A stretch of DNA of 64,000 bases from Thioalkalivibrio halophilus (GTDB lineage Bacteria; Pseudomonadota; Gammaproteobacteria; Ectothiorhodospirales; Ectothiorhodospiraceae): the NCBI RefSeq assembly GCF_001995255.1, contig NZ_MUZR01000017.1, positions 591 through 64,590 of the forward strand, written 5' to 3'. Below the pieces are notes generated by a model. The model saw nothing but the letters and a program-made list of their open reading frames with translations. It made no database searches and was not told the origin of the DNA. This document shows, in pieces, positions 10,653-12,910 of this stretch. A program made the position numbers and the translations under genes. Each line of letters begins with the position of its first letter. The first letter of the stretch is position 1.

Positions 10653-10843
10653 CGCGAACGGGGCACCCGCCAGCGGACGTCGCGGTCGGCCCGGCCGACG
10701 CGGAACGGGGCCGATCTGGAAAGCTTGCTCACCATATCCTCAGTCTCGCAGATCCCGCTGCGCCGCGCCGCCTGCCGGGCGCATGCCTCGCAATCCGCGT
10801 CCTTTCACGGCACCATCGACGCAGATTGCGACCACGGCCGGCC

Positions 10844-11245
10844 ATGAGCAGCGACCCCGACAACCCCGACAGCGCCCCCAACAGCGGAAACCGACATGAC
10901 CCGACGCCCCGCCTGCGCATCCTGCTGGGCGAGGTGACGGCCCTCGGACCGGGCAAGGCACGCCTGCTGGAGGCCATCCGGAGCGCGGGTTCGATCTCCG
11001 CTGCGGCGCGTGACATGGGCATGTCCTATCGCCGGGCCTGGAACCTGGTGGAGACCATGAACCGCAGCTTCCGCGAACCCCTGGTGGACACCGCACGTGG
11101 AGGCTCCCGGGGCGGCGGCGCCCGGGTCACACCGCTGGGCGAGGACGTCCTCGCCCGCTACCGCCGCATGGAGGAGCGCGCCGCCGAGGCCATCCGCGAC
11201 GAGCTCGACGCCATGCGCCCACTGCTGCGCGACGACAGCGAATAG
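10844..11245 (+). CDS. ModE-type winged-helix regulator, DNA-binding domain only
   Basis: A 133-residue protein matching the N-terminal domain of ModE (LysR-like HTH, COG2005). The core is GPGKARLLEAIRSAGSISAA, then RDMGMSYRRAWNLVETMN, ending with the wing segment GGGARVTPLGEDVLARYRRMEE. Full ModE (about 260 residues) carries two C-terminal molbindin domains that sense molybdate; these are absent here, so sensing must be indirect or involve a partner. A ModE-type operator lies 713 bp downstream in front of modA, making modABC the likely target. An upstream TTG at 10826 is a weaker start candidate. Divergent from hrpB. Confidence 0.82.
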   Translation: MSSDPDNPDSAPNSGNRHDPTPRLRILLGEVTALGPGKARLLEAIRSAGSISAAARDMGMSYRRAWNLVETMNRSFREPLVDTARGGSRGGGARVTPLGEDVLARYRRMEERAAEAIRDELDAMRPLLRDDSE

Positions 11246-11257
11246 CCCGCACATCTA

Positions 11258-11329
11258 TATCTGGCCAGGCGGGTATCTGGGTATCTGGCCAGGTGGGTAT
11301 CTGGCTATGCGGGTATGTGGGTATGTGGG
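11258..11329. repeat. Nine tandem 8-bp units, consensus TATSTGGG
   Basis: Nine uninterrupted 8-mers follow one another in exact 8-bp phase: TATCTGGC, CAGGCGGG, TATCTGGG, TATCTGGC, CAGGTGGG, TATCTGGC, TATGCGGG, TATGTGGG, TATGTGGG. The array fills most of the short gap between the convergent ModE-type and rhodanese genes. A short inverted repeat (GCGTGC-TC-GCACGC) follows directly. Base composition differs from the coding surroundings. An 8-bp unit suggests slippage-driven growth. Confidence 0.85.
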
Positions 11330-11399
11330 AGCGTGCTCGCACGCGAACAACGGCCTTGCCGCCCCCGACCGGACCGAACCCGGCCACCTCCCGCCATCC

Positions 11400-11834
11400 T
11401 CAATCCGCCTCCCCGGCCCCCTGCCACCCGCGAAACCCCTCGCGCACCGACAGGCTGCGGGCATACCCCAGATCGCGCAGCAGCTGCGCCGCCCGCAGGC
11501 TGCGCCGCCCGCTGTTGCACAGACACAGCAGAATTTGATCCTGCCGCACATGGTGCTGGTTGATCAGCGACAGGAAGTGCTGGAAGTCCCGCTCGTCCGG
11601 CTCGTCCGCATCCAGCAGCTCCTGTTCTTCTTCCGACAGATGCTTGCCCAGCAGCTGCTTCAGCCGGAACAGCGGCACCGACACCGCACCATCCACCGCG
11701 CCTTCCAGCTCCAGCTCGAACGGCTGGCGGATGTCCAGCAGCACCGCCAGCCCGATATCCACCAGCTCGCGCGACGCATCCACGCTGATCTCCAGCTGCG
11801 GCTCGTCCATCGGTTCGTTCCTTTCGTTACTCAT
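11400..11834 (-). CDS. Rhodanese-like domain protein with extended insertion
   Basis: A 144-residue single-domain rhodanese. The active-site loop is C106-N-S-G-R-R111 (LCLCNSGRRS), so the sulfur-accepting cysteine is present, and the domain ends with the usual GYARSLSVREGFRGW segment. Compared with GlpE-type proteins (about 108 residues) it carries an acidic insertion (about 64-85, rich in Glu/Asp). Such enzymes carry persulfide sulfur. The start at 11834 has GGAG 5 nt upstream. It converges on the ModE-type gene; a role in molybdenum-cofactor sulfuration is conceivable from location but is inference only. Confidence 0.82.
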   Translation of the reverse strand: MSNERNEPMDEPQLEISVDASRELVDIGLAVLLDIRQPFELELEGAVDGAVSVPLFRLKQLLGKHLSEEEQELLDADEPDERDFQHFLSLINQHHVRQDQILLCLCNSGRRSLRAAQLLRDLGYARSLSVREGFRGWQGAGEAD

Positions 11835-11937
11835 GCGCACTCCTTCAAAAAGGCGCTGAATCGAGGCATCCCGGATCCGGAATGCACGGCCGGCGGTCCC
11901 CCGGCCCCTGCGGCCACCGGGCCCGACCGCCCGATGC

Positions 11938-11966
11938 TTGACCGGGTTAATCGAGCCCGTTATGTT
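11938..11966 (+). promoter_or_regulatory. Sigma70 promoter of modABC
   Basis: TTGACC (11938-11943) and TATGTT (11961-11966) are separated by exactly 17 nt, a near-consensus sigma70 promoter. It points at modA, leaving a leader of about 155 nt. The -10 hexamer lies inside the palindrome at 11958-11981, so binding there would block RNA polymerase. Confidence 0.75.
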
Positions 11967-11981
11967 TCATTAAACATAACG
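11958..11981 (+). promoter_or_regulatory. ModE-type operator upstream of modA
   Basis: A perfect 10-bp inverted repeat CGTTATGTTT-N4-AAACATAACG, 24 bp in all. From memory, the E. coli modA operator has the same total length and outer half-sites (CGTTAT ... ATAACG). It overlaps the -10 element of the modABC promoter, the classical position for molybdate-dependent repression. Confidence 0.8.
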
Positions 11982-12127
11982 CGAATGCAAAAATCCCCGC
12001 CGACCTGTCACCCGGATCCTCCAGCCATGGCCCGATCCGCTGTGAAAGGTACGAATACCCTCGTACGGGGAAGAACGTACAGACAAGGCGTTCCCAGACG
12101 CATTCAGCCCGAAGAAAAGGACGACCG

Positions 12128-12910
12128 ATGATGCACCTGCGCACCCTGCTCCTGACCCTGTTCCTGTTGCTCCCCGGCCTGGTGGCCGCCAACGGCCCGC
12201 TGACCATCGCCGCCGCCTCCGACCTGCGCTTCGCCCTGGACGACATCATCGAGGAATACGAACGCGAACACCCGGACGACGCGGTCCGCGTGACCTACGG
12301 CTCCTCCGGCCGCATGACCACGCAGATCATGAACGGTGCGCCGTACGACGTCTTCTTCTCCGCCGATATCGCCTACCCGCAGAAGCTGCGCGCCGAGGGC
12401 CATGCCGTGACGGAACCGGAGGTCTACGCGATCGGCCGCATCGTGCTGTGGAGCAATCGCATGGATGCCTCGGAGATGACGCTTGAAGACCTGCTGCGCG
12501 ACGACATCCGCCGGGTCGCCATCGCCTCGCCCACCCACGCGCCCTACGGCGTGCGCGCGATGGAGGCGCTGAAGTCCGTCGGTATCTGGGAGGATCTGCA
12601 GCCCAAGATCGTCAACGGCGACAACATCGCCCAGACCGCACGCATGATCCAGGCCGGCGGTGCCGAGATCGGCATCATCGCGCTGTCGCTGGCCGAGTTC
12701 CCGGACCTCGCCGAACACCCGCACCACCTGATCGACGACGCCCTGCACGAACCACTCACCCAGGGCTTCATCATCACCCGACGCGGCGAAGACAACGCGA
12801 CCGCGCACCGCTTCGCCGACTACATGAACGGCGACACCGCCCGCGACATCATGCGCCGCTACGGCTTCGTGATGCCCGGCGAAGAGCTGCCCGACGACGC
12901 CACCCGGTAA
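12128..12910 (+). CDS. modA: Molybdate ABC transporter, periplasmic binding protein
   Basis: A 260-residue protein with a cleavable signal peptide (about 1-21, VAA/NGP). The ModA core begins LTIAAASDLRFALDDIIEEY and includes the oxyanion-contact segments SSGRMTTQI and the A/S-rich AIASPTHAPYG loop. It binds molybdate (or tungstate) in the periplasm and hands it to ModB. It is first in a modABC operon controlled by the promoter and operator at 11938-11981. The 153-nt segment between operator and start codon contains only small imperfect hairpins; I could not identify a molybdenum-cofactor riboswitch in it. Confidence 0.93.
   Translation: MMHLRTLLLTLFLLLPGLVAANGPLTIAAASDLRFALDDIIEEYEREHPDDAVRVTYGSSGRMTTQIMNGAPYDVFFSADIAYPQKLRAEGHAVTEPEVYAIGRIVLWSNRMDASEMTLEDLLRDDIRRVAIASPTHAPYGVRAMEALKSVGIWEDLQPKIVNGDNIAQTARMIQAGGAEIGIIALSLAEFPDLAEHPHHLIDDALHEPLTQGFIITRRGEDNATAHRFADYMNGDTARDIMRRYGFVMPGEELPDDATR

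Follow-up and report, generated by a model that had tools for sequence, protein, structure and literature searches.

An imperfect 8 bp tandem array joined to a REP palindrome between convergent genes of Thioalkalivibrio halophilus

Palindromic elements of the kind described below are known as REPs. GTAG-1 REPs have been reported from Thioalkalivibrio sp. K90mix and, in the portion of that report used here, most REPs are said to lie between genes that are unidirectional or convergent (PMC3733652). Among short intergenic arrays, those made of G-rich heptamers have been described from Xanthomonas and Nostoc, according to the relevant part of PMC4692102. A literature search by title and start of abstract returned no REP-joined 8 bp array, which does not prove absence from print. 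Here, we describe such a locus from Thioalkalivibrio halophilus.

The array and its setting

All positions refer to the window, i.e. the whole stretch of 64 000 nucleotides of T. halophilus DNA that was analysed. The features concerned are the following.

10847–11245, plus strand: short ModE-type HTH gene, ending 12 bp before the array.
11246–11399, no strand assigned: shared 3′ intergenic region containing the array and the REP; this seam was found only in the window genome and Thioalkalivibrio sp. ALJ24.
11258–11329, plus strand: imperfect tandem array of nine 8 bp units with a 24 bp higher order (from unit splitting, lag identity and TRF).
11325–11347, plus strand: REP palindrome of GTRG type, its head GTGGG common to the last array unit.
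11400–11840, minus strand: convergent rhodanese-domain gene, its stop about 50 bp past the REP.

The units, in order, are TATCTGGC CAGGCGGG TATCTGGG TATCTGGC CAGGTGGG TATCTGGC TATGCGGG TATGTGGG TATGTGGG. Their mismatches to the consensus TATSTGGG number 1, 3, 0, 1, 2, 1, 1, 0 and 0. The preliminary description of this DNA had placed nine 8-mers at 11258–11329, and its coordinates, unit length and unit count were correct. The units themselves are imperfect, three of the nine fitting the consensus exactly.

Identity at lag 8 was 42/64 in the array, the best lag-8 value in 200 dinucleotide-shuffled 64 kb windows being 41. The best lag-8 value of the intergenic region was 43, which was reached by none of 2000 shuffles of the region. 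Identity at lag 24 was 39/48 (maximum of 31 in the 200 shuffled windows). The array site also received the top TRF score of the window (88, period 24), and a three-unit higher order is therefore present too. The array is thus real and, as in a variable-number tandem repeat, its tandem units stand above chance, both at lag 8 and at lag 24.

The product of the upstream gene matched TIGR00637 with 89.2 bits, under the cut-off of 98.5, and that of the downstream gene matched PF00581 with 43.3 bits (cut-off 22.2). These matches bear out the convergent ModE-type and rhodanese genes proposed earlier. The space between the two stops is 154 bp and holds both the array and the REP. No Rfam match was obtained in 10800–12200, and a terminator scan gave a single site at 11943, with none at the array or the REP. 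A perfect 10 bp inverted repeat (CGTTATGTTT-CATT-AAACATAACG) lies at 11958–11981, before modA; we take it to resemble the ModE operator, for which it is a candidate.

The REP palindrome and its family

The array is not an isolated feature: its last unit runs into a REP that had been overlooked, with the sequence GTGGGAGCGTGCTCGCACGCGAA at 11325–11347. Positions 11325–11346 fit the pattern GTRGGAGCNNNCTYGNNNGCGA with 0 mismatches, giving the terminal GTRG followed by a short palindrome that characterizes REPs of the GTRG/GTAG type. The many dispersed genome copies of such REPs are found as well: the pattern occurs at 46 places in the T. halophilus genome at ≤1 mismatch (31 exact, the other 15 with a single mismatch), while the reversed-pattern control gave 0. 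With a slightly looser pattern, the REP beside the array was the one exact match in the window. Exact copies are present in 19 of 30 genomes of the genus, with between one and 100 in each. The REP hairpin shows in RNA folds of the intergenic region; the short stretch alone folds no better than shuffles (z = −0.67).

The T. halophilus genome encodes a REP-associated tyrosine transposase (RAYT; NF047646, 145.6 bits, cut-off 80), the gene lying on contig 49 (locus L198, 572–1015). The palindromes that flank this gene belong to another REP class (GTRGGAGGCC...), part of the stretch upstream reading N. The RAYT was therefore not assigned as the cognate transposase of the REP at the array.

The same site in other genomes

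Searching for the unit elsewhere, as had been proposed, placed the array in T. halophilus at its home locus only (two adjoining units, 0–1 mismatches). Relaxing the search for two adjoining units to ≤3 mismatches gave 36 matches, seven of them inside the array, versus 19 for the reversed control, and the scattered ones look like chance. A pair of adjoining units at ≤1 mismatch was found in three of the 30 genomes of the genus, namely T. halophilus, ALJ24 at the same site and genome G027, where the match sits inside an inverted REP pair elsewhere and not at the array site. By the same measure, 28 of the 30 have no tandem unit pair at the array site. In G027 (locus L180, near position 1501) two inverted REPs with a different stem are separated by TATGCGGGTATGTGGG, a sequence also present in the array; this is perhaps coincidence.

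The ALJ24 array consists of seven units (TATCCGGC CAGACGGC CAGGTGGG TACCCGGG TAACTGGC TATGCGGG TATGTGGG) followed by an identical REP, and is more diverged (lag-8 identity 30/48). The REP-proximal end, comprising TATGCGGG, TATGTGGG, the REP and about 8 bp beyond, has identical letters in both genomes. The window has one TATGTGGG more beside the REP, and the REP-distal ends are diverged and of unequal length. Alignment of the two arrays matched 46 of 56 bases with 16 bp of gaps. The suggestion of a variable locus thus holds only as a difference between two species (nine versus seven units, one genome per species). Because ALJ24, a separate assembly, also has the array and joins it to the REP in the same way, an assembly error, likewise raised beforehand, is unlikely. 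The sequence GGGTAACTGGCT, which also occurs within the ALJ24 array, stands before another REP of the T. halophilus genome (locus L221).

The search was extended to 47 genomes of the family, in which only short weak matches to the array were obtained besides those in T. halophilus and ALJ24 (best E value 0.022). GGG at an 8 bp phase before a REP was found at 12 places in eight of these genomes (≤1 mismatch; seven for the reversed control); inspected by eye, only the site common to T. halophilus and ALJ24 has an 8 bp array. These searches bear on the order of events. The array could be the older element, its TATGTGGG units having been the insertion target for the REP, which would account for the common GTGGG, and the REP head does match the array period exactly at the junction. 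Yet no REP-less copy of the array was found in the 30 genus or 47 family genomes, and we regard this order as distinctly unlikely.

The surroundings were compared in the genus genomes. Besides ALJ24, 13 contain modE-type relatives of 64–74% identity; seven further genomes, with relatives of only 46–49%, were outside this comparison. Rhodanese relatives of 81–88% were found in 14. By eye, neither the array nor the REP junction was seen in any of the 13 genomes over the 400 bp that follow the modE match, or in any of the 14 over the 330 bp that follow the rhodanese match (one stretch being shortened by a contig end). The start of modA falls within 400 bp after modE in seven of the 13 (by eye). 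Three genomes were compared for gene order. ALJ24 is arranged as in the window; G009 and G011 have modA after modE, with the rhodanese gene at another place about 24 and 19 kb off, respectively. Since the two genes are not neighbours in G009 and G011, the array and REP mark the seam at which they became neighbours.

Possible function and origin

Array and REP together might be a selected 3′-end element that parts the transcription of the convergent genes by termination, protection of RNA 3′ ends or supercoil relief, the array adding RNA structure. Both lie between the convergent stops and are kept in two species, the position of the REP fits the placement reported for REPs in the cited portion of PMC3733652, and on the minus strand the array RNA gives a better fold than its shuffles do (z = −3.49). 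The plus strand, however, gave z = −0.99 and the full intergenic region −0.65 and −1.91, and the minus-strand fold arises from two copies of CTGGCCAG, a pair that by eye is not kept in ALJ24. The terminator scan and the presence of the array in two species only also speak against such an element, which we hold to be unlikely.

It is very improbable that the G-rich 8-mers constitute a G-quadruplex element or the protein-binding array that the preliminary description had considered. GGG recurs at the 8 bp phase, the mean G4Hunter-type score of 0.86 over 72 bp is reached by 0.9% of window positions, and the heptamer arrays of Xanthomonas and Nostoc, as far as PMC4692102 was drawn upon, offer a parallel. 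Against this, four runs of at least three G with loops of 1–7 were not matched in the array, and the ALJ24 array scored 0.54. Protein binding is left unsupported by units that are degenerate, confined to a single genome locus, without a site pair in 28 of 30 genus genomes and positioned past the 3′ ends of the two genes.

The locus is probably a degenerate 8 bp mini-array grown by slippage or unequal exchange beside a REP singleton, with a passive array and a functional-looking REP. The array would have arisen next to the REP, by replication slippage or unequal exchange, in the ancestor of T. halophilus and ALJ24, and its units would since have been gained or lost and have mutated. The REP, a GTRG-type palindrome able to form a hairpin, may act as a 3′-end element for both convergent genes, and the array would have no function of its own. 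Sequence comparison favours this origin, in that the array occurs once in its own genome and with seven units in one relative, and the REP-proximal end is identical while the far end has diverged. The dispersed REP family, the RAYT gene and a second REP-flanked array on contig 77 (below) also count in its favour, whereas the result for REPs of two other species (below) counts against it. The 8 bp phase retained in ALJ24 (30/48 at lag 8) is counted against a passive array and could reflect weak selection. Overall, the array appears to be intergenic repeat DNA of an ordinary sort, not a dedicated switch. What seemed an isolated array would be explained by its place at the edge of a dispersed REP. 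The nine-unit and seven-unit forms provide a natural pair at one site for following the ageing of a short intergenic array.

A bolder proposal is that the REP hairpin seeds minisatellites, slippage at the GTGGG head copying the head and a few preceding bases outward, so that REPs here would be birthplaces of variable arrays (8 bp at this locus and 19 bp on contig 77); we consider it doubtful, if conceivable. The second array (locus L038, 1578–1634) has three copies of the 19 bp unit AGGGGTACATACCGGCGGG (score 86) and sits between two inverted REPs. It was not seen by eye at REPs of G004 and G008 where the sequence following the REP is similar. Lag scores before the head were taken at 42 distinct REP sites of T. 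halophilus (from fetched loci with a pattern looser than that used for the GTRGGAGCNNNCTYGNNNGCGA count). Three sites reached ≥0.7, namely the 8 bp array and both sides of the one 19 bp array. No array of period <60 and score ≥60 was found within 100 bp of 118 REPs in two other species (all 46 exact copies in G004 and 72 of 100 in G005, among the matches listed), so that REPs do not in general act as array seeds. In G005, a period-24 array lies 160 bp and a period-91 array 24 bp from a REP head. In G004 (locus L276, 410–783), four copies of an 87 bp tandem unit beginning GTAGGAGC lie 718 bp from the nearest REP; this array is perhaps a tandem REP cluster. Beyond this locus the present array matters little, unless REPs turn out to be seeds of arrays.

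Compared with known systems, the REP resembles the GTAG-1 REPs of Thioalkalivibrio sp. K90mix, Pseudomonas and others, as characterized in the portions of PMC3733652 and PMC2817692 used here, in its GTRG head, its imperfect palindrome of about 23 bp and its dispersed intergenic copies. The Pseudomonas putida REP given there (TGTGGGAGCGGGC.TGCCCGCGAA; PMC2817692) has the same head and foot, and the stem letters differ. Those portions of the two descriptions contain no 8 bp array joined to the head, unlike the present locus. Intergenic short tandem repeats and VNTR loci, including the G-rich heptamers of Xanthomonas and Nostoc (PMC4692102, relevant part), differ from the array, which has a unit of 8, is degenerate, occupies a single locus, is joined to a REP and was compared between species only; the array shares with them a short intergenic unit repeated head to tail, the number of which differs between related species.
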